From NCBI RefSeq assembly GCF_037031225.1, contig NZ_JAYEZN010000002.1:1-64000 (forward strand): DNA of 64,000 nt, given 5' to 3'. The stretch comes from Halorientalis sp. LT38. Lineage in GTDB: Archaea; Halobacteriota; Halobacteria; Halobacteriales; Haloarculaceae. This document shows, in pieces, positions 1,617 to 48,491 of the stretch (positions within the stretch are counted from its first letter, which is position 1; each line of letters opens with the position of its first letter). The translations under genes were made by a program, and so were the position numbers. Below the pieces are notes generated by a model, which made no database searches, was not told the DNA's origin, and was given only the letters and a program-made list of their open reading frames with translations.

Positions 1617-2516
1617 TCAGGCTCGCTCGGCCACACTCTGTCTCTCGTCCACGAGGAACTCCTCGTAGAACTGGCCCGGAGACCCGACCCACGCGCCCCG
1701 TTCGAGCGCGCCTTCGACGAGTTGCCGATACAGACGCCGGTATCCCGGAAAGTCGCGGTCGCAGAAGTAGCGCGGATGGAACAGCGCCGTCATCACGGCC
1801 CGTTCGGCGGCGGCGGTGTCCAGCAGGGACTCACAGACCGCCCACGCGCGGGCGAACTCCTCGCCGGGGTCGGGGAGGTGTTGCTCCATCAGGGTCAGCG
1901 GGAACACCACGAACTCGTCGTCGAACGGTCTGACGACGTCGTAGCCGAACTGGAACCCACACTCCGTCCTCGAGCCGAGCGACGCGTCGTACTCGAGCCC
2001 GATGGCCTCGTGATGGCGCCACGTGTCCGGAATCTCCAGGTTCAGGTAGTGCTGTCGACCGCCCCTGATCTCGCCGTCGACGACCGATTCGATGCGCGAT
2101 TTCTCACGCTGCAATCGCTCGCGATCGTCCGGCGTGTGAAACGAGCCGTGCAGGCCGACCTCCCAGCCGTCCCCCTCGAGTCGACGGAGGACGGTGGCGA
2201 GCTCCGGGTCCCGGACGTCGTACCGACCGAGCGCCTGCACGAGCGCGTCGAAGTCGAGGAGGTCGGTCGGCGAGTGGTTCCACACCGGCGGTTCGCTCAG
2301 GAAGTAAAACGCCGAACGCACGCCCAGGTCCGCCTCCAGGTCCGTGATCGTCTCGAACTGCCAGTAGGGGTTCCGGCCGGGCAGCAGGTCGAGCAGGTGG
2401 CTCGGTGCTCGCTCCGTCACCGCGTAGAACAGCGACTGGTAGGTCTTGTACGGTCTATCGACGTCGTGGGTGAGACAGAGCGCGAACGGGTAGTCGGTGT
2501 TCTCGACGACGGTCAT
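1617..2516 (-). CDS. Polysaccharide deacetylase-like (NodB homology) protein
   Basis: 299 residues. The N-terminal CLTHDVDRPY segment matches NodB motif 1, whose Asp is the catalytic base and metal neighbour. GLHGSFHT further on supplies the H-x-x-x-H metal-binding pair of motif 2. The family removes N-acetyl or other acyl groups from sugars, often within surface polysaccharide clusters. The ATG directly abuts the TGA of the WecB gene (2517-2519), so the two are almost certainly one transcript. A WecB-type epimerase, this deacetylase and a GT4 enzyme together point to an amino-sugar-containing surface glycan. The acceptor is unknown. It could also act on a lipid-linked intermediate rather than a finished polymer. 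Confidence 0.85.
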   Translation of the reverse strand: MTVVENTDYPFALCLTHDVDRPYKTYQSLFYAVTERAPSHLLDLLPGRNPYWQFETITDLEADLGVRSAFYFLSEPPVWNHSPTDLLDFDALVQALGRYDVRDPELATVLRRLEGDGWEVGLHGSFHTPDDRERLQREKSRIESVVDGEIRGGRQHYLNLEIPDTWRHHEAIGLEYDASLGSRTECGFQFGYDVVRPFDDEFVVFPLTLMEQHLPDPGEEFARAWAVCESLLDTAAAERAVMTALFHPRYFCDRDFPGYRRLYRQLVEGALERGAWVGSPGQFYEEFLVDERQSVAERA

Positions 2517-3617
2517 TCAACGTGACACCCTGGCCGTCCGCGGTTCGCTTCCGTCGACGCCGGTTTCGAGCGCCGACACGATCCGTGCGGCAGCGTTGCC
2601 GTCCCCGTACGGGTCCGGTTTCGTCGTGGTGTCGAACACCCGACCGAGATTGCGCTCGATCGCGCCGCTGTCCGAACCGACGAGGACGTTCCAGCCGCAG
2701 GCGACCGTCTCCTCCCACTCGGTCTCCTCGCGGAGCGTCACGCAGGGGGTGTCCAGGTAGAAGGCCTCCTTCTGGACGCCACCGGAGTCGGTCGCGACGC
2801 GCTCTGCCCCGTCGACGAGCCGGAGGAAGTCCAGGTAGCCGACCGGATCGATCAGCTCGATCGGGCCCGGCAGGTCCCCGAGCAGTCCCGCGTCGTCGAG
2901 CGCCTGCTCGGTCCGGGGATGCGCCGGGAAGACGACCGGGAGCCGCGACTCGGCGAGTCCGGCGAGGATCTCGACCAGCCGGTCCGGGTCGTCGGTGTTC
3001 GTCGCGCGGTGGACCGTCGCGAGGACGTACTCCCCGTCGTCGTATCCGAGCCGGTCCAGCACGGACGAGCGCTCGCGCGCTCGCTCCCGGACGGCAAGCA
3101 GCGAATCGTACATCACGTCGCCGGTGACGTGGACGCCGTCCGTGATGCCCTCGGCGGCGAGCCTGTCCGCCGCGCGCGTCGACGGCGCGAACAGCAGGTC
3201 CGAGCAGTGATCGGTCAGGACGCGGTTCGTCTCTTCGGGCATCGACCAGTTGTCGCTGCGGAGGCCCGCCTCGACGTGGGCGACGAGCGGCTCGCGTTTC
3301 GCGCCGGCGAGGGCGGCGGCCAGCGTGGAGTTCGTGTCGCCGTAGACGAGTACGACGTCCGGCGATTCGTCTGCGACGACGCCGTCGAGTTCGGCGAGCA
3401 TCGCTGCGGTCTGTTCCCCGTGAGTCCCCGAGCCGACGCCGAGGTTCGCGTCCGGTTCGGGGATGGGGAGCTCCTCGAAGAACACGTCGCTGAGTTCGTG
3501 GTCGTAGTGCTGTCCCGTGTGGACGAGCACCTCCTCGTGTGCGCCCGAGAGCGCGTCGGAGACGGGGAACGCTTTCACGAACTGCGGGCGAGCGCCGACG
3601 ACGGAGAGGACCTTCAT
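2517..3617 (-). CDS. wecB: UDP-N-acetylglucosamine 2-epimerase (non-hydrolysing), WecB type
   Basis: 366 residues. Interconverts UDP-GlcNAc and UDP-ManNAc, the first step towards UDP-ManNAcA. The N-terminus MKVLSVVGARPQFVKAFPV is diagnostic; further family marks are HTGQHYDHELSDVFF, VYGDTNSTLA, HVEAGLRS and, in the C-terminal domain, ATDSGGVQKEA and CVTLREETEWEE. I chose the ATG at 3617 because the family begins directly with MKVL; an in-frame upstream extension of ten residues is not family-like. The UDP-sugar dehydrogenase at 51187-52557 would be the natural next enzyme, but it lies far away. A TAACAAA element sits near 3744-3750 on this strand. Confidence 0.93.
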   Translation of the reverse strand: MKVLSVVGARPQFVKAFPVSDALSGAHEEVLVHTGQHYDHELSDVFFEELPIPEPDANLGVGSGTHGEQTAAMLAELDGVVADESPDVVLVYGDTNSTLAAALAGAKREPLVAHVEAGLRSDNWSMPEETNRVLTDHCSDLLFAPSTRAADRLAAEGITDGVHVTGDVMYDSLLAVRERARERSSVLDRLGYDDGEYVLATVHRATNTDDPDRLVEILAGLAESRLPVVFPAHPRTEQALDDAGLLGDLPGPIELIDPVGYLDFLRLVDGAERVATDSGGVQKEAFYLDTPCVTLREETEWEETVACGWNVLVGSDSGAIERNLGRVFDTTTKPDPYGDGNAAARIVSALETGVDGSEPRTARVSR

Positions 3618-4014
3618 CTGGAGCCCCTCCGCGAACCGTCGACACACCGAACTACCGCCGTCCTGCGCACAGTACCACCACGAGGGACCCGAGCGAGAGT
3701 CGCCAACATACTACGATCGACCGAACGGTCGCCGTTGTGTCCCTTTGTTATGGATTACGTGCCGGACGACTCCGTGTATCAGACCGCGGCTAACGGGCCG
3801 CGAGGCGGGACGAGTGGCGGCCGACAGATTCGTCTCGGCGAGCGCTGGCGCCGAGGCCGGCCGAACGACGACGCGGCGAGTCCTCGTTCCCGCGGCGGAC
3901 GCTGGAGGGGAGGGATCCCGAACCGGTAACCACACTATAACGAAACGGATCGAACTCGCAGCTACGCGATACGGAACGGCGCCGGAGACGTCCGTGCCTG
4001 GAGACAAACAGACA
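3618..4014. other. Intergenic region between divergent wecB and FemAB-like genes
   Basis: About 400 bp that must carry both promoters. On the minus strand a TAACAAA element lies at 3744-3750, preceded by CA. On the plus strand an AT-rich stretch (ACTATAACGAA, near 3934-3944) lies about 70 nt ahead of the FemAB-like start and could be its TATA box with a short leader. No convincing gene was seen. Confidence 0.5.
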
Positions 4015-19130: not shown

Positions 19131-21221
19131 TCAGAGTTCGGTCCATTCGATTTCGTCTGCTCCAGCGAGCGCGTCCACGCGCACGGTCGCTTCGTCTTCG
19201 ACGTAGAGATACTCGTGGTGTCGCCCCGCGTCGGTCGACGGTTCCTCCCACTCGATGAGGCGGACATCGTCGACTGTGATGGTATTCGAGTCGCGATCTT
19301 CCGGGGGCGACAAGAGGGCGAACAGGTTCAGGAACGACGATCCGTCGGGCGGGACGAGCCGGTAGCGGAACTGCTGCCAGTCTCCGTCCGTCGTCTCTAG
19401 CTCGACCGTGACTCCGTCGAACGACGATCCACCTGCGCTGGAGTACCACGGCACGAGGAGCTCCACACTCGAACCCGTCTCCGACCGATACCAGCCCGTC
19501 AGTGTATACGACTGGCCTTCGATGGGGATTCGGCTGACGGGCGACAGAATACTCTGACGGCTGTTCTCCCGATAACTCGTCAACCGGAGACCGCCGGTTT
19601 CACGCCCGACGGTTGGCCCGGTGGCCGTGGGACCGCGGCGGAACCGCCACAGCGGCGCGGTGTACTGGGCACCGTCCACGAGTATCTCCTCGAACGACCC
19701 GGTGTACAATCGGTCGCGGCCGACCGCGACCGTTCCCGAGGCGTCGGCGATCTCGATCGTGCCGCCGGCGTCGCGCTCGTACACTGTCTCCGGACCGCCG
19801 AGCCGTCGCTCGGTCGTCGTCGTCCCAGGCGTCGACGTAACGACACCGGCGCGACCGGCGGTCCCGAATCTGAGTTGCCCCGTCGACAACGCCGCGGCGT
19901 CGCGGGCGATCTTGTTTCGAACGGCGCCAGCGGTGCCCTTTGGCACGTATCCATCGAGGAGCACTGGCTCGGCGAGGACTCGCTGTAGCCCATCGCTGTC
20001 GACGTGAGCGACCAGCACGTACGACCGGAGGGTCTCCCAGAGGACCTGATCGAAGACCAGATTCCCGAGCGACCAGGCGATCAGTGAGCCGTCCCGTATC
20101 TCGAGACCGCCGGTGACGTGTGGATGATGGTTGACGACCAGGTCCGCGCCCGCCCCGACTGCCACGCCGGTAAGTTGACGGACGGAGTCCGTTGGCTCAC
20201 GCTGGTATTCCTGGCCGCCGTGGATTTGCACGACGACGACGTCCGCCCTGCTGGCCGCTCGGGTGACCTCGGCGCGGAGTTTCTCCGCCGTCGCTTCCGC
20301 GACGCCAGCGTCCCCGGGAACCGTAAGGCTCCGCCCGTTTTGTGTGAGGGTGTACGAGTCCGCCTGGGACCTGTCTGCGGACCAGTCCCGGTCGTACTGG
20401 TCTCCAACGACCGTGGTACAAGAGACGTATGCGACGCTCGGACCCCTGGTCTCGAATACCGCCGGCTGCCACGCTTCGTCGCTCGACATCCCGGCACCCG
20501 AGCGAGCGATTCCCGCACGATCGAGTTCCGCGCGTGTTTCCTCGAGCCCCGGTGTCAACGCATCGAACACGTGATTGTTCCCGAGGGCGGCGTAGTCGAC
20601 CCCCGAATCGGCGAGCACTCCGGCAGCGACCGGATGGCTCGTGAACTGGAACGTCTTGCCTGGAAACGTCCAGTCCGTGGTCGTCAGAGGCGTCTCCAGG
20701 TTTATCGACATGATGTCGGTGTGCTCCAACAGCGGTCGGATCGGTCGGAGGACGTCTCGATGTGTTTTCTGCCGTGACCCCGGGTCGATACGCGCTCGTT
20801 CCGAGAGCCCGTCACCGCCGGTGTCGTAGAACCGACGCCCGAACATCACGTCGCCACCGAAGCCGAGACTCACCGTCGTTCCCGTGTCTGGCGTGAGACG
20901 GACGACGGGCTCGTCACCGGCGGTCACGGCCCGTACCCGAGACAGGTACTCGGGGTGGCTGGCCCGGACCCACACCGACTGCTCGACCGTGACCTCGAAC
21001 CGACCCGCCTCGTCGGTTCGGGCCTCGGTATCGACACCGCCCGATGGCCCGATGACTTCGACGGTGGCATCGGGAACCGGGCTCCCCTGCAGGTCGGTGA
21101 CTGCGCCGCTGATTGGGGCACCGCCGCTCCCGGAGTTCGGAACGCCGCACCCGGCCAGGCCGACCAGCGCGCTGGCACCCGTTGCCCGCAACAACTGCCG
21201 ACGCGAGACGCCGAACTCCAC
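19131..21221 (-). CDS. capA: CapA-like metallophosphatase lipoprotein with C-terminal carbohydrate-binding-type domain
   Basis: 696 residues. The N-terminus is a Tat lipoprotein signal: twin arginine in SRRQLLRATGAS and lipobox LAGC with Cys25. Residues 35-105 form a carboxypeptidase-regulatory-like beta domain. Residues 115-420 are the CapA (PGA_cap) domain: GGDVMFGR at 122-129, SINLETPL, ALGNNHVFD, VQIHGGQEY and NHHPHVTGG supply the metal ligands. The last 150 or so residues look like a beta-sandwich of the carbohydrate-binding kind (SYTLTGWYRSETGSSVELLV). CapA proteins take part in export, attachment or release of poly-gamma-glutamate at the cell surface. It follows capB after 98 bp. Confidence 0.88.
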   Translation of the reverse strand: MEFGVSRRQLLRATGASALVGLAGCGVPNSGSGGAPISGAVTDLQGSPVPDATVEVIGPSGGVDTEARTDEAGRFEVTVEQSVWVRASHPEYLSRVRAVTAGDEPVVRLTPDTGTTVSLGFGGDVMFGRRFYDTGGDGLSERARIDPGSRQKTHRDVLRPIRPLLEHTDIMSINLETPLTTTDWTFPGKTFQFTSHPVAAGVLADSGVDYAALGNNHVFDALTPGLEETRAELDRAGIARSGAGMSSDEAWQPAVFETRGPSVAYVSCTTVVGDQYDRDWSADRSQADSYTLTQNGRSLTVPGDAGVAEATAEKLRAEVTRAASRADVVVVQIHGGQEYQREPTDSVRQLTGVAVGAGADLVVNHHPHVTGGLEIRDGSLIAWSLGNLVFDQVLWETLRSYVLVAHVDSDGLQRVLAEPVLLDGYVPKGTAGAVRNKIARDAAALSTGQLRFGTAGRAGVVTSTPGTTTTERRLGGPETVYERDAGGTIEIADASGTVAVGRDRLYTGSFEEILVDGAQYTAPLWRFRRGPTATGPTVGRETGGLRLTSYRENSRQSILSPVSRIPIEGQSYTLTGWYRSETGSSVELLVPWYSSAGGSSFDGVTVELETTDGDWQQFRYRLVPPDGSSFLNLFALLSPPEDRDSNTITVDDVRLIEWEEPSTDAGRHHEYLYVEDEATVRVDALAGADEIEWTEL

Positions 21222-21319
21222 CTACGTTTCCCCCCGTGCCGATTCCGTCGGTGTCGTCGCTGCGTCTTCGACGGCGAGGGAGCCTCGACGCCGATTCTTC
21301 CATTTGAGGGGTGCGGTGT

Positions 21320-23371
21320 TCATTCGTCCAGCTCGACCCCCGTACCGTCCGCGGCGGGCCCCTCGTCGGACGACCCACCGATGTTGACGACGTCGGCGTT
21401 GGCAGCCAGCGGTCGGATCCGCTCGACCATCCGCTCGGCAGCGGCCCGGGTGTCGTACGCGCGCGTCCCGTCCGCGACGATCCGGCCGTTCGAGCTGCGC
21501 GCTCGCCAGCGGTAGCCACCGGATTTGTCCTCGTACACCTCGATGTCGACCGCGGTCGATTGCGCGCTGAACCGACCGACCGCACTGACCGCGCCCCCGC
21601 GCCGGACGTAGCCTTCACCGCTATCAGCGCGGATCGTTTCGTCCTCGTCACGCAACCGCCACCGGTACTCGCCGGCCCGGTCTTCGTACACCTCGTATCG
21701 ACCGCGCGCGGTGCTGCTCGGGCCCGGATGGATCAGCCTGCCCCGCGTGTCCGAGTCCGTGCTCGCAGATTCGAAATCGACCTCGACACCACCTTCGAGG
21801 GCTTGCTCGTCGAGATCGGCGACGGCGTGCGATCCACCCGTTCGTTCGGCGAGAAGGCGTTCCATTTCCCGCATGAACGGGGCGACGGTGTTCCCCATGA
21901 ACAGTATCGGGCGACCGTCGGCGAGCAGTTCGTCCAGAACTGCCGCCGGATCGGCAGCCGGTGAGTGTGACTCACAGGGCACGTCGAGTGCGTCGACGAA
22001 GGCACGGCGGTGATCGCCGCCGACGTGGACGCGATCGATACAGTCCCGTTCGGCGAGGATGTTCATGTACTCCGCGAACGACGCGGATCGCCCACGGCGG
22101 TCAGACCGGAGATAGACGAACGGCAGGACGTGCTCGCCGCCCTGGACGAGCGCACGGCGGATCGCTTCCGTGCTTTCGATATCGTTGGCCTTGGCGGCGT
22201 TGAAGACCCGCTGTCCGCTGACGATCGACCACGACGGCTGGGCGCGCTCGAGGTACCCGGCGATTCGATCGGCGGGCAGGGGCGGTTCGTCGAGGCGCTC
22301 CAGGACCGCCTCGAGTGCGTACACGGTCTCGGCGCTGACGAGACCCCGATGGCGTTCCGGAACGTCGACCTGTGAGATCGTCCCGTTTCGCTTTTCGATC
22401 TCTTCGCGGAGGTACTCGTGGATGACCGGGTGTTGTTCGCCGCTGACCACGTGTGTGCCCGCGGGGATGGAGCGGCCGAAGGCGCGAGCGATTCGCTGGC
22501 GGTCCGCACCGAGCGTCTCGGTGTGATCCCGACGGACGTTGCAGAGAACGACGATATCGGGATCGAGGAATCGTTCGTTGACCATTCGCATCGTGTATTC
22601 GGTGATGGCCTGATTCTCGACGATAGCGACGTCAGGTGCCGGGCTCTCGTAGGTCGTCGGCCCCAGCCGCTGGAAGAACTCGACGTTCTCGTAGAGGGTG
22701 ACACGTGGACTGTGGCGCTCGATCGGCACCACCGCGCCGTTCCTGATGAGTGTCGGTCGATCGCCGGTGATCTTCGTGAGCGTATCGTAGCCGCGTCGGT
22801 TGAACACGTCATCGAGCCGTTTCGCCGTCGATGACTTCCCCCGAATGCCGGAGACAGCGATCTGTATGTCCGCTTCCTTCAGCACCTTTCGGTGGCGCTT
22901 GCCACGTCCGACGATCGACTCGAGGGCTCGGAGCGGCCGCCCGACACGCCCGACCTCGAATCGGTCGGTGACTAGCTGCTCTTCGGGCGGATGCGTGAGC
23001 CGGACCTGCGCTCTTGGCGCGACGTCCCGAAACCGATTGATGTCGTCTGTCGCTTCCTCCGTCGTCGCTCGTTGGTTCGAACCGATGGCGAGCGTCCGTC
23101 CCGCCCCTCGCTCACCGACGACGAGCCGCCAGATCCACGTCCCGTCCTGTTCGACGGTCTCGAATCCGGCCACCCCCTCGTACAACTCACTCGATAGCAC
23201 GGTCCAGAGCCGATCGATCGCGGCGAGGGTCTCGTTGACGGACGAATAGGTCTCGAGACTGTGTGCGAGCGTCTCCCGATCGTCTCGGAGCAGCCATTGC
23301 CAGTCGGAGCCCGTCGGTGAAACCTCGAACTGCAGTCGGTCGTCGGCATCCGGTACCGGATCGCTGTTCAT
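21320..23371 (-). CDS. capB: CapB/PgsB-like Mur-ligase fused to four HVO_2922/DUF1508-like repeats
   Basis: 683 residues. The central part (about 165-530) is a Mur ligase-type ATPase of the CapB/PgsB family: P-loop GIRGKSST at 175-182, VENQAITEYTMRM, VVLCNVRRDHTETLG. CapB activates the gamma-carboxylate of glutamate for polymerisation. Unusually, short repeats of the type EVYEDKSGGYRWR...IVADGTRAYDTR, which I associate with HVO_2922/DUF1508 domains, flank it: two divergent copies at about 14-58 and 69-116, and two clear copies at about 560-655. Ordinary CapB has about 400 residues. The ATG overlaps the capC stop by ATGA. The order capC-capB-capA on one strand argues for one polymer-synthesis machine. 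Confidence 0.85.
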   Translation of the reverse strand: MNSDPVPDADDRLQFEVSPTGSDWQWLLRDDRETLAHSLETYSSVNETLAAIDRLWTVLSSELYEGVAGFETVEQDGTWIWRLVVGERGAGRTLAIGSNQRATTEEATDDINRFRDVAPRAQVRLTHPPEEQLVTDRFEVGRVGRPLRALESIVGRGKRHRKVLKEADIQIAVSGIRGKSSTAKRLDDVFNRRGYDTLTKITGDRPTLIRNGAVVPIERHSPRVTLYENVEFFQRLGPTTYESPAPDVAIVENQAITEYTMRMVNERFLDPDIVVLCNVRRDHTETLGADRQRIARAFGRSIPAGTHVVSGEQHPVIHEYLREEIEKRNGTISQVDVPERHRGLVSAETVYALEAVLERLDEPPLPADRIAGYLERAQPSWSIVSGQRVFNAAKANDIESTEAIRRALVQGGEHVLPFVYLRSDRRGRSASFAEYMNILAERDCIDRVHVGGDHRRAFVDALDVPCESHSPAADPAAVLDELLADGRPILFMGNTVAPFMREMERLLAERTGGSHAVADLDEQALEGGVEVDFESASTDSDTRGRLIHPGPSSTARGRYEVYEDRAGEYRWRLRDEDETIRADSGEGYVRRGGAVSAVGRFSAQSTAVDIEVYEDKSGGYRWRARSSNGRIVADGTRAYDTRAAAERMVERIRPLAANADVVNIGGSSDEGPAADGTGVELDE

Positions 23372-24537
23372 GCACCGTCACCTCCACTGAGGATGGACGC
23401 AGCGTGGACCGACTCGTCGTCGGGGAGTGTCGGCGTGAGCCAGTACGCCACCGCGAACGAAATCGCCGTGATGACACCCATCACGGCGACCGCCGTGGGA
23501 GTGAGCGACTGGATCGGTGCGTTCGGTTGTGGCCGGCCGACCAGCAGGGCCAGTCCCAGCAGCGGGACGAAGATAGCGACCGAGAGGGCCGCGAACGTTC
23601 GCCGATGGCCGCTCGCCGTTACGTGGAAGTTGTACGCGCTGAGCCCGCCCAGGATGCCGGCGAATAGAGCCGAGAGGCCGCGAACGACCGGAAGTTCCAC
23701 CGAGAGGGGGATCACCAGCACCACCGCGATCGCGGTCCCGATGCCCACTAACACCCGGCCGTACAGGAGCGTGGTCCGGTTGATCGCTTCGATGAGCACG
23801 TAGCTAACGGCGAAGACGAGCGCGAACACGACGGGCAACCAGATACTGGCGAGCGTAAAGACGGCGAGCAGCGCGATCGAAACGATCCCGACGCGAAGGC
23901 CGAACCGAGCCCTCACCGATTCGGCGAAGACCATCCCGATGAGCAGCACGACCGCACCGAGTCGCTGTTTGATGAGTGACGGTTCGGGTGGCGTTGAAAC
24001 CGCCGCCCCCTTGAAGGCCGCCACGTCCGCGGTCTGAGAGAACAGCACCGGTGGTGCCATTCCGCCGAGGCGGGCAGCGTTTGCGGGAGTGATGAGCAAA
24101 TAGCCGAGCACCAGGAGTGCTCCGAGAAGCCCCGTGGCGACGAACAGGTCTGTACGACGGCGCTCTGGTTTGAGCTGGTGGTAATTGAACGCCGCCAGTC
24201 CCGGTATGATACTCCCGATGAAGAGGATCGACTGGAACGCCTGATCGGCGACAGCCGTCAGTGTGTACAACATGCCGAGGGGGACGAGCGATCCGACGAC
24301 GATTGCTGCCAGGAGTTCCTGGCGCCCGTAGATGAGCGTTCGATCTTTGAGGACCTGTAACCCCACATACGCGACGGCGAAACTCAAAACGAAGATCGGG
24401 AGCATCACCACGTTTTTCAGGGTATAGACGGCGATGACGCTCACCGTGATGGCCCCCCCGAGCCGGTATCCGTACCACTGCGTGAGCGTTGCGACAGACA
24501 GGAGGCCGAGAACGATTAACAATCCAGCAACGAGCAT
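23368..24537 (-). CDS. capC: CapC/PgsC-like polytopic membrane protein, internally duplicated
   Basis: 389 residues with about ten membrane segments. Two halves of similar layout can be seen: the first ends near FNYHQLKPERRRTDLFVA, the second near YNFHVTASGHRRTFAALS. Each half has an N-terminal hydrophobic pair, a TLIYGR or TTLLYGR motif, and the Y/F-N-x-H loop. Bacterial PgsC is about 150 residues and matches one half. PgsC forms the membrane part of the poly-gamma-glutamate synthase with CapB. I chose the ATG at 24537 (MLVAGLLIVLGLL); a TATA-like AATAAAAAG lies about 28 nt upstream (24561-24569), fitting a leaderless transcript. The stop overlaps the capB start. Confidence 0.82.
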   Translation of the reverse strand: MLVAGLLIVLGLLSVATLTQWYGYRLGGAITVSVIAVYTLKNVVMLPIFVLSFAVAYVGLQVLKDRTLIYGRQELLAAIVVGSLVPLGMLYTLTAVADQAFQSILFIGSIIPGLAAFNYHQLKPERRRTDLFVATGLLGALLVLGYLLITPANAARLGGMAPPVLFSQTADVAAFKGAAVSTPPEPSLIKQRLGAVVLLIGMVFAESVRARFGLRVGIVSIALLAVFTLASIWLPVVFALVFAVSYVLIEAINRTTLLYGRVLVGIGTAIAVVLVIPLSVELPVVRGLSALFAGILGGLSAYNFHVTASGHRRTFAALSVAIFVPLLGLALLVGRPQPNAPIQSLTPTAVAVMGVITAISFAVAYWLTPTLPDDESVHAASILSGGDGA

Positions 24538-24560
24538 ACTACGAAAGATGTGCAACTGGC

Positions 24561-24932: not shown

Positions 24933-25052
24933 GCAGATTGAAGTGGGAGCGCGCCGTCGGGTGAGCACGAATGCTGGATCGAGTCGTTGCGGCCGCTTCC
25001 CCCGGGGTTTGCGCGCCGAGAGCTGCCGCGCCGGAGCGCGGAGGGGAGACGG

Positions 25053-26267
25053 ATGGCTGAGCGCGCGCGGTCGACGCCGCTGGCCCAGACCTTCGAGCGC
25101 TACCTCCAGGACAAGGGGAAGGGACGGGGCGGCGACGGCGGGAACTACCGCCGGAACGCGGCCCGTGAACTGGCGCGATTCGCCGAGTGGGCCGCCGGTG
25201 ACCGGGGCGGAGACGACTGGTCCGGGATCGAGGCCGCCGACCAACCGACGTTCGCTGACCTCGACGAGCGAGTCTTCCGGGCGTACGCCCGCCACCTCGC
25301 CGGCGACCGCGGCCTCAAGGAGAACACGGTGCAGACGTACTACGCTTACGTCTCGGCGTGGTGTGGGTGGTGCGTCAACGAGGGCTATCTGGCGGCCCAC
25401 TACGCCCAGCGGGCGAGCGCGACGGCGCCGCTACCCGAGGACGACGGGCGCAAGCCCGGCGATCAGCAGGCCTGGACCACCGAGCAGCGCCACGCGATCA
25501 CCCGGCACGTCGACGACCGCGCCCGGGAAGCCATCGAGGCGTTCACGACGCTTCCGGCGGACGGCGACCCCCGAGAGAAGCAGCGAGCGCGGTACAACGC
25601 GCTGAAAGCCGCGCGCGATCGTGCCCTGGTCGTCGTCCTCGCCTACACCGCCGTCCGGGTCGGCGAACTGCTGCGGGACCCGGACGATCCCCGCCGGCGG
25701 GGCGTCCGGTGGGGCGAGCTCGACCTCGACGACGGGAGCATGGACGTCTACCGGAAGAAACAGCGGTGGGACGCCGCCAGCCTCCCAGACCCGGTGATCG
25801 GGCCGCTCCGGAGCTATCGCCGACTGCTGGACCCGCCGTCAGACAGATGGCCGGTGTTCCCAACCTTCGACCGACGGACGCTCGCAGACCGTTTGCAGAC
25901 GGCGTTCGCGGACCGCGGACTGACGTCCGACGAGATCGAAAATCGGCGCGAGGGAGCCGTTCGCGACCTTCTGCTGGCGATCGAGGCGGACGTCCGGCCA
26001 CCCTCGCTGACCACGGACGGGGCGCGATCCGTCCTGCAACGCCTCACGGCGGCCGCCGACGTCGACGTGGCGCACCCGAAGCACGACTACCTCGCCCCGC
26101 ACGGCGGCCGGCGCGGGATGGGCGAGGTCCTCGTCCGCGCGTTCGGGTACACCGTCGCCGCCCGGTATCTGGACAACTCCGAGGAGATGGTCCGGGAGCG
26201 CTACTCCCACATCGAGGCCGGCGAGTTGGGCGACGTCGCCACCGAGGCGCTCGAGGAGATCGACTGA
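25053..26267 (+). CDS. Tyrosine recombinase / integrase (XerC/D-like)
   Basis: 404 residues. The N-terminal 130 form a core-binding domain (TFERYLQDKGKG, YARHLAGDRGLKENTVQTYY). The catalytic domain shows Arg202 in TAVRVGELLRDP, a Lys in DVYRKKQRWD, His350-x-x-Arg353 in PHGGRRGMGE, and the nucleophile Tyr384 in RERYSHIEAGE. It catalyses site-specific recombination. Bounded by a dif-like repeat upstream and the 13-bp array plus parA downstream, it may resolve replicon dimers rather than integrate a virus; no tRNA att site is seen. The ATG at 25053 (MAERARSTPLAQTFERY) is chosen because residues upstream look non-coding. Confidence 0.9.
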   Translation: MAERARSTPLAQTFERYLQDKGKGRGGDGGNYRRNAARELARFAEWAAGDRGGDDWSGIEAADQPTFADLDERVFRAYARHLAGDRGLKENTVQTYYAYVSAWCGWCVNEGYLAAHYAQRASATAPLPEDDGRKPGDQQAWTTEQRHAITRHVDDRAREAIEAFTTLPADGDPREKQRARYNALKAARDRALVVVLAYTAVRVGELLRDPDDPRRRGVRWGELDLDDGSMDVYRKKQRWDAASLPDPVIGPLRSYRRLLDPPSDRWPVFPTFDRRTLADRLQTAFADRGLTSDEIENRREGAVRDLLLAIEADVRPPSLTTDGARSVLQRLTAAADVDVAHPKHDYLAPHGGRRGMGEVLVRAFGYTVAARYLDNSEEMVRERYSHIEAGELGDVATEALEEID

Positions 26268-26304: not shown

Positions 26305-26642
26305 TTCTAGCTGAGCCAACCAGCTGAGCCAGCTGGCTAAGTTAGCTGAGTTAGCTAGTCAACCCACCGGTCAGATCGACGCAGCCAGCCAACTGGGCCA
26401 CCGAGCCCGCTCAGCCGGCCGAGCCCACTGACCCAGTCACCTGGCTGCCCCAGCGGTCCGAGCCATCTGGCTCGAACAGCTAACCCAGCCATCTGGCGAG
26501 CCCATCTGGACTGCCCAACTTGCTCACCCAGCTAACTAGGCCAGCTAGCTGAGCCAGTTGGCTTAGCCAGCTAAGTTAGCCAGCGAAGTAAGCCAGCTAA
26601 GTCTGCCAGCCAGACCAGTTAACTGAGTCAGCTGGATAGGTC
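26305..26642. repeat. Array of 26 contiguous 13-bp units: candidate centromere
   Basis: The 338 bp divide without insertion or deletion into 26 units of 13 bp, for example AGCCAGCTAAGTT (26565-26577), AGCCAGCGAAGTA (26578-26590), AGCCAGCTAAGTC (26591-26603), GAACAGCTAACCC (26474-26486) and AACCAGCTGAGCC (26318-26330). Units are degenerate but keep an AGC/CAGCT-like core and often an AG or GG at the start. The array fills the gap between the recombinase stop and the parA promoter. The placement is that of a plasmid partition centromere with autoregulatory function, which tandem binding by a ribbon-helix-helix protein would explain. Confidence 0.8.
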
Positions 26643-26653
26643 GTCTGACTTAC

Positions 26654-26663
26654 CTTTAAGTAG
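26654..26663 (+). promoter_or_regulatory. TATA-like box of parA
   Basis: CTTTAAGTAG is centred 28 nt before the parA ATG at 26686 and starts 12 bp after the last full unit of the 13-bp array. A protein filling the array would stand next to TBP/TFB. Confidence 0.5.
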
Positions 26664-26685: not shown

Positions 26686-27525
26686 ATGCTCTCTTACACG
26701 GTCTATAGCGAAGCGGGGGGCGTCGGAAAGACGACGCTCGCGGCGAACCTCGCGAAAGCCGAAGCACGAGCGGGCCGGGACGTCCTCGTCATCGACTTCG
26801 ACACCCAGGAGGCGTCGCTGTCCTACCTGCTCGACGTGGACGAAAACCGCAGTAACAAGGAGGCTGACAGCCTGCTGCGGCACATGATCGACCGGCCACG
26901 AGGCCCGTTCGAGGATCTCGTGGAGACGAGCGAAGGGATCGACGTCGTCCCGGCGCACAACATCCTCGAGTACGCCTCGAAACACCTCCAGCGTCGGGCG
27001 GAAGAGGCCGCCGACTTCGGGGAATCGTTCAACCCGAACAAACAGCTGCTTCGGGTCCTCAAGGACGCCGGCGTCGCCGAGAAATACGACACGCTCATCA
27101 TCGATCCGCCGGCCAGCCCCGACATCAAGCTGCACAACGCGATTCACGCCACGCGACACCTGGTGATCCCCTTCGAGCCCAGCGGGAAGGGGTACGAGTC
27201 GGTCCAGGGACTCGACGACATCGTCGCCGGACTCGAGAACAACCTGGACATCGAGGTCGGCGTCCTGGCGATCGTGCCCAACCGATTCGAGGGGCTCAAC
27301 ACCCAGAAGGAGTTCCTGGCGGAGATCGAAGCCGAGGGCTGGGAGGTGCCAGTGACCTTCCGCAAGCGGTCCTCGCTGCTCGAAGGGTGCTGGAACGAGC
27401 AATGTACCGCATATCGCTATATCGAGGAATTCCGCGATCGCGACCGGGAGCACGAACTGGAGACGCTGGAGAAGTTCGACGAGCTCGCGGCCTACATCCG
27501 CCGACAGGCGGAGGTGCCGGCATGA
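26686..27525 (+). CDS. parA: ParA-family partition ATPase
   Basis: 279 residues. Deviant Walker A at 9-17 (EAGGVGKTT), Walker A' DFDTQEASLSYLL, and Walker B LIIDPPASPD are all present. It is a small ParA without an N-terminal DNA-binding domain (type Ib-like); such ATPases segregate plasmids or secondary chromosomes by a diffusion-ratchet on the nucleoid. The C-terminus (EELETLEKFDELAAYIRRQ-like helix) is charged. The start ATG lies 28 nt from a TATA-like box. The stop overlaps the start of the next gene (ATGA), as in classic parAB operons. Haloarchaeal genomes also use ParA-like proteins for cell positioning (MinD/ParA-like), so the role is inferred from context. Confidence 0.9.
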   Translation: MLSYTVYSEAGGVGKTTLAANLAKAEARAGRDVLVIDFDTQEASLSYLLDVDENRSNKEADSLLRHMIDRPRGPFEDLVETSEGIDVVPAHNILEYASKHLQRRAEEAADFGESFNPNKQLLRVLKDAGVAEKYDTLIIDPPASPDIKLHNAIHATRHLVIPFEPSGKGYESVQGLDDIVAGLENNLDIEVGVLAIVPNRFEGLNTQKEFLAEIEAEGWEVPVTFRKRSSLLEGCWNEQCTAYRYIEEFRDRDREHELETLEKFDELAAYIRRQAEVPA

Positions 27526-28013
27526 AGCAGGGCTCGACCGACGATCCGTTCGCGGACGACGCGGAGACGAATCGGGATACGGAGACGAAACCGGCAGACG
27601 AGGAGGGGGCGGCGCGGTCGGAGGCGGAGGAAACGGATCGATCTGAGGCGGCAGCGGCGGAGACGGCAGCGGATTCGGCGTCGTCGCGAGAAGCGACGGC
27701 TACAGAGGCGAGCACCGACGAATCGACCGATTCCGGCGTTGACAGCGGCTCCGTCGGCAAGTCCGCCGGGCGGTCGCTCCCGTACATCTACAAGCGCGAC
27801 GCGGTCAAGGAGGGGCGGTCCCAGCGGCCGGTCTACCTCCGCGAGTACAACGAGGAGCGGATCGTCCAACTGGTCGACGACGTCGAGGAACTCCTGGCGA
27901 CGGAGGTCACCAAGACCGACGTGCTCGAGGCCGCCATGGAGACGGCCATCGAGAACCCGGAGCTCGTCGTCGAGACGCTCAAGACGGAGCGGTACGGCTA
28001 CGACTGGGAGTGA
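27522..28013 (+). CDS. ParA partner with C-terminal ribbon-helix-helix-like domain (centromere-binding candidate)
   Basis: 163 residues. The first 85 are disordered, Glu/Asp/Ala/Ser/Thr-rich. Residues 87-163 start SLPYIYKRDAVKEGRSQ and continue with a strand (RPVYLREYN) and two helices (EERIVQLVDDVEELLATEV and TKTDVLEAAMETAIENPEL), the order of ribbon-helix-helix DNA-binding proteins such as ParG or omega. In those systems an RHH protein binds tandem repeats ahead of parA. The ATG overlaps the parA stop. The disordered N-terminus could contact ParA, as the flexible tails of ParG do. Alternative: an unrelated regulator of the parA operon. Confidence 0.72.
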   Translation: MKQGSTDDPFADDAETNRDTETKPADEEGAARSEAEETDRSEAAAAETAADSASSREATATEASTDESTDSGVDSGSVGKSAGRSLPYIYKRDAVKEGRSQRPVYLREYNEERIVQLVDDVEELLATEVTKTDVLEAAMETAIENPELVVETLKTERYGYDWE

Positions 28014-29185: not shown

Positions 29186-29989
29186 ATGAGCTATCAGGGA
29201 GACGACCCGAACAGACGACGGCAGCGACAGCAAACCGGAACGCCGCGCCAGCAGCCTCAGTCGAGCGGACAGCAGTTGCCGCAGTCGGGCGGACAGCAGC
29301 CGCCGCAGTCGGGCGGCTCACAGCAACCGCCCGCCGGACAGCCGTCGGCACAGCAACAGCCCACCCAGCAGCCCCCAGCCCAGGGGTACCAGCAGGGACG
29401 ACAGGGACAGCAACCGACCGGATACCAGCAACAGCAAGGCACACAACCCCAGCCGAGAACCGGCCAGTTCGGTGCCCAGGGAGCGGGTGCCGGCCACCCG
29501 CAGATGCCCGGGCAGGGCGGGCCGCAGCCGCCACAGGCCAGGGGCCGGCGTGCACGGCTGAGTCCGGCGACTGTCGAGGAGGTCGTCAGCACCGACGTCG
29601 TCACCGCCCAGCGCGACACGCCCGTCTCCACGGTCGCGGCGTCGATGGAGAAACACGACGTGGGGTGCGTCGTGGTCGTCGAGGACGACGGCGAGACGCC
29701 GGTCGGCGTCATCACCGACCGCAAGATCGCGCTCGCGATCGAGTCGACCCCGGACATCGGGAAGCGGCCTGCGGAGGAACTCGTCTCCGGTGACCTGCTC
29801 GTCGGCACGATGGAGATGACGGTGTTCGAGGCGCTCGACAAACTGTCGGAAGCCAGCGTGCGCCGGCTCCCGGTCGTCGACGAGGGTGGCTCGCTCGCCG
29901 GGATCGTCACGCTCGACGACCTGATCGTCGTCTTCGGCCGTGGCCTCGGCGACGTCGCCGAGATCATCGCGACCCAGACGATGCAGTAG
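29186..29989 (+). CDS. CBS-pair protein with glutamine-rich N-terminus
   Basis: 267 residues. The first 125 are a low-complexity Gln/Pro/Gly region without hydrophobic core (GQQLPQSGGQQPPQSGG type). Residues 130-265 hold two CBS motifs (EEVVSTDVVTAQRDTPVSTV ... GVITDRKIALAI; VFEALDKLSEASVRRLPVVD ... GIVTLDDLIVVF), which bind adenine nucleotides or act as energy sensors. The Q-rich tail is shared in style with the 31655, 32955, 39165 and 40286 products. The ATG at 29186 (MSYQGDDPNRRRQ) fits the start pattern MSQ/MSY of the group. Confidence 0.88.
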   Translation: MSYQGDDPNRRRQRQQTGTPRQQPQSSGQQLPQSGGQQPPQSGGSQQPPAGQPSAQQQPTQQPPAQGYQQGRQGQQPTGYQQQQGTQPQPRTGQFGAQGAGAGHPQMPGQGGPQPPQARGRRARLSPATVEEVVSTDVVTAQRDTPVSTVAASMEKHDVGCVVVVEDDGETPVGVITDRKIALAIESTPDIGKRPAEELVSGDLLVGTMEMTVFEALDKLSEASVRRLPVVDEGGSLAGIVTLDDLIVVFGRGLGDVAEIIATQTMQ

Positions 29990-31400: not shown

Positions 31401-31654
31401 GCCCCGTCGGCACGCTGATGGCCGCCCGCGTGAGCGATCGTGAACTGGCGGCCGACGGCCCCGTCGATCGCCCGACAGAATCCGCTTACCCGACCCCGGA
31501 ACTGGAAATCCAGGGCTATCGAGTGAACGATAGCGGCTGTTTATACCGACGCCAGCGGACGACACTGACGCACCGTTCGGTTCGGAAACGGCGAGCGACG
31601 GTCGCCCGCGCGGATCCGACGGTCGATAGACGCTTTCGAGACCTCACGTTACCA

Positions 31655-32464
31655 ATGAGTCAGCAACAACAGACCCAGCAAGGGCCCGGGGAGTCGAGCG
31701 CAGAATCAACACAGCAAACGCTCATGGAGAACGGTCGCAAGGCCGTCCGGCAGTTCGTCGAACTGCCGCTCCAGCAGACACTGGAGTTCCAGCGCAGCGC
31801 CGCGCAACTGTTCGTGAACGGCCTGGAGGCACAGAGCTGGGCCCAGCAACGCGGGATCGAACTGACGAAAGACAGCATGGGCAGTTACCTCCAGACGCTG
31901 GACAACGTCGTCGAGAACGCGGAGCAGATGGCCGAGACGGAGATGGCCGCGGCCAGCCAGCAGGGCGAGGCGATGCAGCAAGGGATGGGCGAAGCGATGC
32001 AACAGGGGATGTCCCAGCTGGGCGGCGAACAGCAGATGGGCGGCGACCAGGGGATGGGTGGCCAGCCGATGCAGCAGCCCCAGGGGATGGGGCAGGAAGC
32101 CGGCGGGATCGGGGGCCAACAGCAACCGCCCGGCTCCCAGCAGCAGCCGCCCGGAGGCCAGCAGCAGCCACCGGAGATGCAACAGCATGGCCCACAACAG
32201 CAGCCCCCGGGGATGGGCCAGCAGCCACCACAGCCCCAGGGATCGCAACAGCAGCCGCCGGGGATCCAACAGCAGCCACAGCCCCCACAGCAGCCACCGA
32301 CCGACATCCAGACCCCGCCGCAATCGGCCGGTCAGCAGCCGCCGAAACAGCCGCCCCAGCAGCCAGAACCCACCGAGACGCCGGAGTCCGGGGCGGAGCC
32401 GAAGCCGACCGAGACCCCGCCGGAAGAGCGCTCCAAGGAGGAGCCGGTCCCCGAATCGAAGTAA
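31655..32464 (+). CDS. Helical (phasin-like) protein with long Gln/Pro-rich tail
   Basis: 269 residues. Residues 22-100 form a continuous amphipathic helical stretch (GRKAVRQFVELPLQQTLEFQ, SAAQLFVNGLEAQSWAQQRG, SYLQTLDNVVENAEQM), similar in style to phasins that coat granules. The remaining 165 are low-complexity Gln/Pro/Gly/Met repeats such as QQQPPG, then an acidic Pro/Glu tail (PEPTETPESGAEPKPTE). No Cys, no membrane segment. Phasin identity is not proven; no PHA-synthesis gene is in the window. The helical region could bind a granule or a partner, and the tail may drive condensation; inference. ATG at 31655. Confidence 0.6.
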   Translation: MSQQQQTQQGPGESSAESTQQTLMENGRKAVRQFVELPLQQTLEFQRSAAQLFVNGLEAQSWAQQRGIELTKDSMGSYLQTLDNVVENAEQMAETEMAAASQQGEAMQQGMGEAMQQGMSQLGGEQQMGGDQGMGGQPMQQPQGMGQEAGGIGGQQQPPGSQQQPPGGQQQPPEMQQHGPQQQPPGMGQQPPQPQGSQQQPPGIQQQPQPPQQPPTDIQTPPQSAGQQPPKQPPQQPEPTETPESGAEPKPTETPPEERSKEEPVPESK

Positions 32465-39076: not shown

Positions 39077-39164
39077 GCCGCGTCGGAGAATGCGACCGGC
39101 GTCGGTTCACGGCGTCGCGCGAGCGGCCGGGAACCGAGGCGCGGTCAGTTCGCCGCGTCGGCGA

Positions 39165-40091
39165 TCAGAACTGCTGACGGCTCTGGCCTTTCTGGCCCTG
39201 CTGCTCCTGCTGCTCCTGCTGCTTGTACTGGAGCCCGCCCTGTGATTGCTGGCCGCCCTGCTGGCCGGTCTGTTCCTGCGTGCCGGTCTGCTGGGGCTGT
39301 TGCTGCTGGCCCATTTGAGGCTGCTGTTGCCGGCCCATCTCGGGCTGTTGCTGTCCGATCTGGGGTTGCTGCTGGGACTGAATCCCTTGTTGGGGCTGCC
39401 GTTGCTGTCGCTGGCCCATCTGGGGCTGCTGCTGTTGGCCCGTCTGTGGGGATTTCTGTTGCCCCATCTGCGGCTGCTGCTGTTGCTGCTGGGATGGTTG
39501 GCCCTGCTGGGATGGTTGGCCCTGCTGGGACGGCTGGCCCTGCTGGGACGGCTGGCCCTGCTGGGACGGCTGGCCCTGCTGCCCCGGTTGCTTGGTCTCC
39601 TGGCCCAGCACTTCGATTCCCTTTCCGATCCCTTCGGTCATCTGACCGAGCTGTTCGGCCTGTTGCCCGATCTCTTTCTGGGCTCGCTGTTGTATCTCCT
39701 GGGCCCCCTGCTGGCTCTCCTGCATCTGGCCACCGCCGAACCCGGGCGACTGCTGCTGGCCCGTCCCCTGGGGTTGCTGACGCTGTTGTCCCTGCTGCTG
39801 GGGCTGTTGCTGGCCCATCTGCTCGGGCTGCTGCTGTTGCCCCGTCTGGGGCTGCTGTTGCCCGAACCCCTGCGTGGCCCCTTGCTGTTGTGGCTGCTGG
39901 GACTGGATTCCCTGCTGTGGCTGCTGCTGGGGCTGGTACTGTTCGCGCTGCTGGCCCAATTCGGCCTGTCCCTGCTGTCCGAAGTCGGTCTGGCCCTGCT
40001 GGCGCTGCCCGAGTCCCTGCTGGGTCCCCGTCTGCTGTCGTTCGGAGCCTCGCTGTGACTGTCCTGTCTGCTGTCGGTTTTCCTGACTCAT
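39165..40091 (-). CDS. Extremely glutamine-rich low-complexity protein
   Basis: 308 residues, close to half of them Gln, with Gly, Pro, Met, Ser and Thr making most of the remainder. It has repeats such as QQGQPS (five in a row at about residues 180-210) and QQQPQMGQ. One central segment, QQRAQKEIGQQAEQLGQMTE followed by GIGKGIEVLGQE, is helical, and would act as the folded core. No enzyme motif. The composition resembles prion-like or condensate-forming regions. ATG at 40091 (MSQENRQQTG); the start pattern equals other members of the block. Opposite-strand frames through this region are Leu-rich artefacts of CAG-type codons. Confidence 0.75.
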   Translation of the reverse strand: MSQENRQQTGQSQRGSERQQTGTQQGLGQRQQGQTDFGQQGQAELGQQREQYQPQQQPQQGIQSQQPQQQGATQGFGQQQPQTGQQQQPEQMGQQQPQQQGQQRQQPQGTGQQQSPGFGGGQMQESQQGAQEIQQRAQKEIGQQAEQLGQMTEGIGKGIEVLGQETKQPGQQGQPSQQGQPSQQGQPSQQGQPSQQGQPSQQQQQQPQMGQQKSPQTGQQQQPQMGQRQQRQPQQGIQSQQQPQIGQQQPEMGRQQQPQMGQQQQPQQTGTQEQTGQQGGQQSQGGLQYKQQEQQEQQGQKGQSRQQF

Positions 40092-40219
40092 GATCTGGTA
40101 TGTCGCGCCGCTGTCGGCTGGTGTCTTTGCGCCCGTTCCTGTCCCGGGGGAGAAGTCCCGGGTCGGCGTCGACGGGGTCGGTGTCGCGTCCCCGTCGGAG
40201 GCTGCCACTCCCCTCCAAT

Positions 40220-40237
40220 TAACCGTTTCGTCGGTTA
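40220..40237. promoter_or_regulatory. Inverted repeat upstream of the Gln-rich protein gene
   Basis: TAACCG and CGGTTA arms separated by TTTCGT, about 130 nt upstream of the start at 40091 and just after the end of the copper-binding gene. A further CGGTTAG occurs near 40275-40283. It may be an operator or a terminator hairpin for the gene at 40286. Confidence 0.35.
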
Positions 40238-40285
40238 GGGTTTCTAAGGAGCCGTTATACCGTTGCAGCCGTTTCTTGGCGACGG

Positions 40286-40831
40286 TTAGAACCCCTGGGT
40301 CGCACCGCCCTGCTTGCCGGGCTGCATGCCACCGGACTGCATACCGCTGGACTGCATCCCGCCGGACTGCATGCCACCGCCCTGCGTCGATCCCATTCCC
40401 TGCTGGACGGCCTGCATCGTCTGTCCGAGGGTCTGGGCGCACTCCTGGCAGTGCGGGTTCTGATGCTGTGCGCACTCCTGGGCACAGGCCTGGACCGACT
40501 GCTGGAAGGTCTGGAGGATCTCCTGTCCGAACCGGGAGTTACGCGGTAGCATGGCGACCGCGGCCTCGCCGATCTCGGCCACGTCTTCGCAGAGCCGGAT
40601 GCACTCGACCATCTGGGGGTTGCTCTCCTGGATACACTGGTCGGCACACCAGGAGCAGACGTCGATGGCGCGGCTGATGCTCTCGGTGAGCTGCTGGCCC
40701 TGGTGCTGGCCGCCCTGCGTCGTCGATCCCTGCTGTTGGCCCTGGATCCCGCCCGACTGCTGCTGGGGCTGTTTGGCGTACTGCTGCCCGGTCTGTGCGC
40801 CGCTCGACTGCTGGAACTGGCCTCCTGTCAT
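40286..40831 (-). CDS. Four-helix-bundle copper-binding protein (DUF326/Csp-like) with Gln-rich termini
   Basis: 181 residues. The core (about 45-145) carries cysteine pairs facing a helical bundle: IDVCSWCADQC, ECIRLCEDV, VQACAQECAQH, NPHCQECAQ. This is the pattern of copper storage (Csp) and DUF326 proteins, which hold Cu(I) along the bundle. The N-terminal 45 and C-terminal 35 residues are Gln/Gly/Ser/Met-rich repeats (GGMQSGGMQSSGMQSGG), where Met may add copper-binding capacity. It precedes the Gln-rich protein gene by about 195 bp. Start ATG at 40831. Confidence 0.85.
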   Translation of the reverse strand: MTGGQFQQSSGAQTGQQYAKQPQQQSGGIQGQQQGSTTQGGQHQGQQLTESISRAIDVCSWCADQCIQESNPQMVECIRLCEDVAEIGEAAVAMLPRNSRFGQEILQTFQQSVQACAQECAQHQNPHCQECAQTLGQTMQAVQQGMGSTQGGGMQSGGMQSSGMQSGGMQPGKQGGATQGF

Positions 40832-47913: not shown

Positions 47914-48166
47914 TTGGCAGGAGAGCAGGCCTCTCCTCTCGCGTTTTCGTTGTAATACGATATACACTTGCTGTTCTCTCCGCTAGTCTCCGCTAGTGTT
48001 GTCGATCCAGCTGCAAGATCCCTAGATTTGTTGCCACAGCAATTAAGTTTAAATAGGTGTAGTGAGAAAAGCTAGCCAAGTACATCACAACAAAGAAAGT
48101 GATGACTCAGTCATCACGACGGCTCGAGCGAGCCAGTCGAAACGATCGTGCTGCACACTTCTGCTG

Positions 48167-48238
48167 TCGGTCTTGCCGTCGGTCTTCCCGTCAGTCTTCC
48201 CGTCAGTCTTCCCGTCAGTCTTCCCGTCAGTCTTGCTG
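48167..48238. repeat. Six 12-bp tandem repeats between the ORB-like clusters
   Basis: Units of TCAGTCTTCCCG (exact at 48191, 48203 and 48215), with variants at 48167, 48179 and 48227. A frame on the minus strand would encode KTDG repeats but has no gene-like surroundings. Possible iteron or slippage product. Confidence 0.75.
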
Positions 48239-48491
48239 TTGACTCCTGCTGTTGAGTCCTTGAGTCCACTCCTGTTGGCTGCGTACGCCCGTACCTTCAG
48301 CTGCCCGTCCCGCCTGGGATACACCTCGTTCCGTGTCTCGAGTCGTCTAGGACCGGTCTCTGTCTATCTGTCTGTCTGTCATTAGCCGTTTTCGCGTCCG
48401 TTGCACTCGATCTGGGCCCCGGTTCTCGTCCCGCTCCACACCCGGAATCCCACCCCGACCCCCGTTTCAACTCCACCCCCACCCCCTCTTC

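Follow-up and report, generated by a model that had tools for sequence, protein, structure and literature searches.

A contiguous array of 13-bp units beside a haloarchaeal parA operon, a likely centromere of a type-Ib-like plasmid partition system

What does the centromere of a haloarchaeal plasmid look like? A review of archaeal segregation counts the appearance of archaeal chromosome and plasmid centromeres among the questions still outstanding (PMC5120986), and a 2025 survey found canonical ParB to be essentially absent beside archaeal parA (PMC12704722). The question is raised here by a locus in the window, by which we mean the whole 64,000-nucleotide stretch of DNA that was analyzed, where a run of 13-bp repeats lies between a recombinase gene and a parA operon. 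A preliminary description, made from the sequence alone, had read this run as 26 contiguous units suggestive of a centromere coated by a ribbon-helix-helix (RHH) partner protein. The features concerned are the following.

24987 to 26267, + strand: tyrosine recombinase gene, directly upstream of the array (Phage_int_SAM_5, 1.5e-4; weak XerC/XerA similarity)
26305 to 26642, no strand assigned: proposed centromere parS, 26 contiguous 13-bp units (from autocorrelation, profile, register, replicon-wide uniqueness, and a period kept in homologues)
26643 to 26649, + strand: GTCTGAC element, sharing the array's register and placed at -42, -43, or -44 from parA in most homologues
26655 to 26660, + strand: TATA-like box TTTAAG, with the parA ATG about 28 bp further on
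26686 to 27525, + strand: parA, encoding a ParA/MinD-type ATPase of 279 aa (Pfam AAA_31, 4.7e-19, and CbiA, 2.3e-17; PDB entry 1wcv, Soj, 1.6e-8)
27522 to 28013, + strand: gene of partner B, 163 aa (from alignment, AF2 models, and covariation with the unit)

The periodic 13-bp array at 26305 to 26642 is genuine. Its self-identity is 0.53 to 0.56 at lags of 13, 26, 39, and 52, where 0.26 is expected, and the corresponding z values against 500 dinucleotide-preserving shuffles are 10.8, 11.5, 9.8, and 10.4. Lags 4 and 9, which add up to 13, are also high; the unit is therefore internally structured, and because of this internal 4/9 repeat the exact unit register is uncertain by ±4. Identity at multiples of 13 is 0.45 to 0.52 whether the lags are short, middle, or long, so the array stays in register for about 300 bp. 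The unit has the loose consensus AGCCAGCTgACTc, with a dyad at AGCT. With a leave-one-out profile, 24 of the 26 units score positive, the exceptions being those at 26370 and 26448. Both edges are sharp. The four 13-mers preceding 26305 score -9 to -14 on the unit profile, and the first 13-mer after the array (GTCTGACTTACCT, at 26643) still scores +4.5, which puts the GTCTGAC element in register. Tandem Repeats Finder reported only the best-conserved parts, mainly 26528 to 26610, with period 13 and 0% indels. A period-13 scan of all 112,117 bp of the replicon gave z = 17.4 for the array and 3.2 for the runner-up; no second 13-bp array was found in that scan. The preliminary count of 26 contiguous units thus held, and the comparison with shuffled sequence that had been proposed with it was run and passed (z of about 10 to 11).

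Two ready readings of such a repeat can be ruled out. A CRISPR array consists of identical repeats of about 25 to 37 bp with unique spacers, and the units here are degenerate, contiguous, 13 bp long, and spacerless. Nor is the repeat coding: none of the listed open reading frames runs across it, and 13 is not divisible by 3. It was once proposed that CRISPR repeats serve haloarchaea in partition (Mojica 1995, cited in PMC2841640); the 13-bp array is a better candidate for that role.

The array lies on contig C2 (112,117 bp) of a genome of two contigs and 3.58 Mb, and a Cdc6/Orc1 gene is found at C2:97063, about 70 kb from the array (26305) in contig coordinates. We therefore regard C2 as a plasmid-sized replicon with its own Cdc6/Orc1. 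Short-period repeats occur at both of its ends (1 to 89, with a 24-bp period, and C2:111936 to 112117, with an 8/16-bp periodicity), which is consistent with, and no more than consistent with, a circular replicon cut within a repetitive gene. The tyrosine recombinase could plausibly be a plasmid resolvase lying outside the centromere; plasmid pHH400 likewise has a tyrosine recombinase upstream of parA. Three adjacent genes at 19131 to 24555 on the minus strand resemble a poly-gamma-glutamate capsule operon, with CapC identified by Pfam (23368 to 24555, 4.3e-26) and CapB-like and CapA-like products by eye. Proteins rich in Gln/Pro/Gly repeats cluster downstream of the partition operon (29187 to 29989, 31418 to 32464, and 39145 to 40475), one of them with a CBS-like C terminus by eye. 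Finally, at 48166 to 48380, where the DNA is locally richer in A+T (GC 0.62), 12-bp tandem repeats (GTCAGTCTTCCC, 5.8 copies) stand among further short repeats and may mark an origin or a recombination site.

Between the array and parA lie the GTCTGAC element and the TATA-like box. The latter was placed with the usual spacing of haloarchaeal promoters in mind, and homologues have TTTATA at the matching position. Since it stands about 28 bp ahead of the parA start, the transcript is inferred to be leaderless, probably. Of 87 non-redundant loci, 58 have GTCTGAC no more than 70 bp from parA, 43 of them at -42. The element is kept between array and TATA box across subfamilies whose units differ completely, and its role is unexplained.

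ParA has no N-terminal HTH, which agrees with a type Ib ParABS ATPase, and carries its P-loop at residues 9 to 16. Its Walker A sequence, SEAGGVGKT, aligns to NQKGGVGKT of Soj and has alanine where the signature lysine is expected. This lysine is absent in 87 of 87 non-redundant homologues, which read EAGG or ESGG (Ala, with Ser in two), and the ParA family thus fails the deviant Walker A criterion of type Ib ParABS systems, KGGxxK[ST]. The missing lysine recalls type 1 McdA; the modes of dimerization and ATP hydrolysis remain open.

The start of B overlaps the parA stop by 4 bp, as it does in most homologues, and another type Ib criterion, a small gene for a centromere-binding protein (CBP) directly 3' of parA, is met. 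B opens with a conserved motif (MKQGSTDDPF), followed by a linker that is acidic and variable and then by a C-terminal domain, again conserved; in the alignment of its relatives the N-terminal motif reads MK-G-x-DPF. In the AF2 model the core (pLDDT 94.9) has an extended segment that leads into two long helices, a strand-helix-helix topology. The best Foldseek matches in the PDB were plant TCP-domain/DNA complexes, with E > 1, and the antitoxin ParD2, an RHH protein, ranked lower. TCP domains also form beta-ribbon dimers. Membership of B in a known family was rejected: Pfam (its RHH families included) and NCBIfam gave no match, profile searches among PDB chains gave no sequence match, SegB included, and an hhalign comparison with haloarchaeal RHH_1 was not significant. 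An RHH fold is therefore likely and unproven, as it rests only on the predicted topology and on weak, non-significant fold matches. The preliminary naming of the partner as a candidate RHH protein has no more behind it than this prediction and these matches.

Is the period a property of this one replicon or of the family? A protein search found ten close parA loci (in Halorientalis, Halosimplex, Halobellus, and other haloarchaea), and all but one have a 13- or 26-bp periodicity upstream that ends in GTCTGAC and a TATA box; it is weak where little upstream DNA was available. In the exception (L017) the parA start is interrupted by a transposase-like gene, as judged by eye. We then compared the upstream regions of 113 loci, reduced to 87 non-redundant ones, taking for each the best period among 6 to 40 bp. 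This was 13 or 26 in 75 of the 87 and 39 in one more. None of 400 control segments, most of them coding and taken from this replicon and from related loci, had its best period at 13 or 26. A further type Ib criterion, repeated candidate sites beside the operon, is met by these 75 loci, in which the sites covary with the CBP. Arrays run from about 5 to 29 units (median, 9.5), with roughly a dozen loci having only 4 to 6, and among the 74 clear arrays, 38 have a unit whose palindrome is significant (p < 0.05). Unit kinds are unrelated between subfamilies: GTATAGCTATACN / AGCCAGCTnACTn, CTAACTNNTTAGT, CTAACTnnTTAGT, TGTTCATTA, TTCATTA types, and others. Across subfamilies, then, the unit sequence diverges completely and the 13-bp step stays. 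Two further points of the preliminary description are settled by this comparison: similar arrays do occur at related parA loci, and the proposal that selection acts on the period over the sequence held.

The system is widespread. By profile search, 236 of 392 Halobacteriales genomes contain a B-family relative, and they represent 65 of 95 genera; the ParA is encoded in 183 plasmid records. A viral origin was rejected, as no phage record had ParA or B. A distant ParA-B pair with 37% ParA identity (L136; Halobacterium salinarum R1 PHS3, 2501 to 3891) adjoins the gas-vesicle cluster; the units upstream of it are CTGTTACAGATA-like, with a best period of 13 bp (z 6.9).

If B reads the unit, the two should change together. 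Across 68 clear arrays we compared distances between unit profiles with distances between proteins. The Mantel correlation was 0.554 for unit and B domain and 0.469 for unit and ParA; in partial tests it was 0.342 for B given ParA (p = 0.001) and 0.071 for ParA given B. The unit sequence thus probably tracks B rather than ParA, a statement tempered by the rough control for relatedness, which entered through ParA distance only. The single B positions that covary most strongly with the unit are Q101, T130, K96, and K131 (window numbering), and in the AF2 model they fall in the predicted strand and the helix-2 N-cap. RHH proteins touch DNA at their strand and helix-2 N-cap. An AGCT core accompanies Gln101 in 26 of 38 arrays and other residues in 1 of 30 (Fisher p = 1e-8); Arg101 goes with TTCA types and Met101 mostly with CTAAC types. 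Such covariation is what a DNA-binding adaptor should show, and it supports the proposal of a centromere coated by the partner protein, although there are no binding data and binding itself is inferred.

Some arrays have left the promoter. An unbiased, genome-wide scan of 382 genomes for three TAGCTA cores set 13 bp apart had three hits, each at a parA-B operon and one of them downstream of B. In ten loci with few known upstream units (L037 and L039 to L047; nine Haloarcula-type, from one genus, and one other) a 13-bp array follows B, with z of 7.7 to 11.0, and in Haloarcula hispanica pHH400 (L134) the array lies about 140 bp after B (z 11.0). In Haloarcula-type plasmids two units are left at the promoter and the main array is downstream of B. 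This separation of array and promoter favors a centromere role beyond that of an operator. No clear downstream array was seen in the remaining loci read, including those with long upstream arrays. A rule that a short upstream array is always offset by a downstream one was rejected: 13 of 15 other short-array loci lack one, and two show weak signals. Downstream compensation is therefore a lineage feature and not universal. It is possible that 4 to 6 units suffice; in pSM19035, ParA activation needs a minimum of four contiguous repeats (PMC9499535).

We conclude that the array is likely the centromere-like parS of a type-Ib-like ParA plasmid partition system, a conclusion reached without binding, segregation, or plasmid-loss data. 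By inference, B dimers would occupy neighboring palindromic 13-bp units and so coat the array. With a helical turn of about 10.5 bp, every 13-bp step would rotate the binding face by some 85 degrees, four units making about five turns, and the B coat would therefore wind round the helix; the preliminary description had suggested such winding, and we take it up as an inference. The flexible N-terminal tail of each B dimer may offer its MK-G-DPF motif, the likely ParA-contacting peptide, to ParA-ATP on the nucleoid, and the plasmid would be placed and distributed in the manner of type Ib ParABS systems. The array is probably the operon's operator as well, a caveat to the original centromere proposal. 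The promoter-proximal units and the in-register GTCTGAC make autoregulation likely, with the units nearest the promoter as the putative operator for parA-B autorepression; here, too, binding data are lacking.

The strongest rival holds that the array is solely an operator, through which B autorepresses parA-B, and that the true centromere is elsewhere or nonexistent. In its favor, most loci have the array directly against the promoter, and a short block of units stays at the promoter even where there is a long array downstream. However, in ten loci a long array sits downstream of B, off the promoter, with the 13-bp step kept; 26 units over 300 bp are more than an ordinary operator needs; and the 112-kb replicon has no other 13-bp array. 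We consider this reading unlikely. Less likely still is that the units are replication iterons or origin boxes. Halorientalis sp. IM1011 does have a Cdc6/Orc1 gene just upstream of the array, but in the window's replicon that gene is far off (C2:97063, versus 26305), so that the criterion of a position beside the initiator, which iterons and ORB boxes should satisfy, is not met. Moreover, the array goes with parA-B and not with an initiator, and the unit sequence tracks B. Equally improbable is a system that positions cargo other than a plasmid, such as granules or gas vesicles. Type 1 McdA likewise lacks the signature lysine (PMC8262871), and a related pair stands beside gas-vesicle genes in H. 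salinarum R1 PHS3; against this, neighbors vary among loci, the family is common on plasmids, and the covariation of a DNA array with the partner makes DNA the cargo. An origin by chance, as an artefact of composition, or from repetitive coding or selfish DNA, for which only the degeneracy of single units speaks, is all but excluded by z values near or above 10 at four lags and by a period conserved in 75 of 87 loci.

For the preferred reading, a plasmid centromere, a bolder form can be stated: a DNA partition class of the haloarchaea's own, with a lysine-less ParA, an unrecognized centromere-binding family, and a fixed 13-bp step whose unit co-evolves with its binder. On balance we lean toward this form, by a small margin. 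If it is true, each adaptor subfamily has its own spelling of the unit, and the incompatibility of co-resident plasmids becomes readable from sequence. A ParA-B-array class would fill in the site and the adaptor that have been lacking for many haloarchaeal plasmids, and it offers dozens of natural adaptor-site pairs in which specificity diverges at a constant geometric step. Examples open to testing exist in model strains, on Haloarcula hispanica pHH400 and Halobacterium salinarum pNRC200. As the preliminary description had supposed, no haloarchaeal centromere in the form of a 13-bp array is described in the literature searched, from which subscription papers mostly fell outside.

How does the system compare with known ones? 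The nearest are type Ib ParABS systems with an RHH ParB, such as delta-omega of pSM19035 and ParFG of TP228, which share the small HTH-less ParA, the small CBP, and an uninterrupted run of short repeated sites by the promoter of the operon. The N terminus of type Ib CBPs is disordered, a further likeness to B. They differ in that the haloarchaeal ParA lacks the signature lysine and its CBP is not recognized by RHH models. The pSM19035 parS comprises 7 to 10 consecutive 7-bp heptads (PMC9499535), which are non-palindromic repeats, whereas the array's units are 13 bp long, often palindromic, and loose. The system would thus work like type Ib, as far as inferred binding and segregation allow; we do not class it as a member because the signature lysine of ParA was tested for and not met. 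SegAB, of Sulfolobales and some Euryarchaeota, is also archaeal; SegB is an RHH protein that binds the 13-bp palindrome TCTAGA-S-TCTAGA (PMC12284271), segA overlaps segB, and sites lie upstream of the operon. SegB sites, however, are scattered over the chromosome, whereas here there is one contiguous plasmid array on a 112-kb replicon, and B has no detectable sequence match to SegB among PDB chains. McdAB, which positions carboxysomes, resembles our system in its type 1 form through a ParA-family ATPase without the signature lysine (PMC8262871, PMC9178275); its cargo, in contrast, is a protein body with no DNA site, and McdA has SGGQGKT and a midprotein extension. AspA-ParBA of pNOB8 (PMC5120986) is, like the proposed ParA-B system, an archaeal plasmid partition system with a small DNA-binding protein, one that spreads helically on DNA; it differs in having three genes, a winged-HTH AspA, and a ParB adaptor with a histone-like C-domain.
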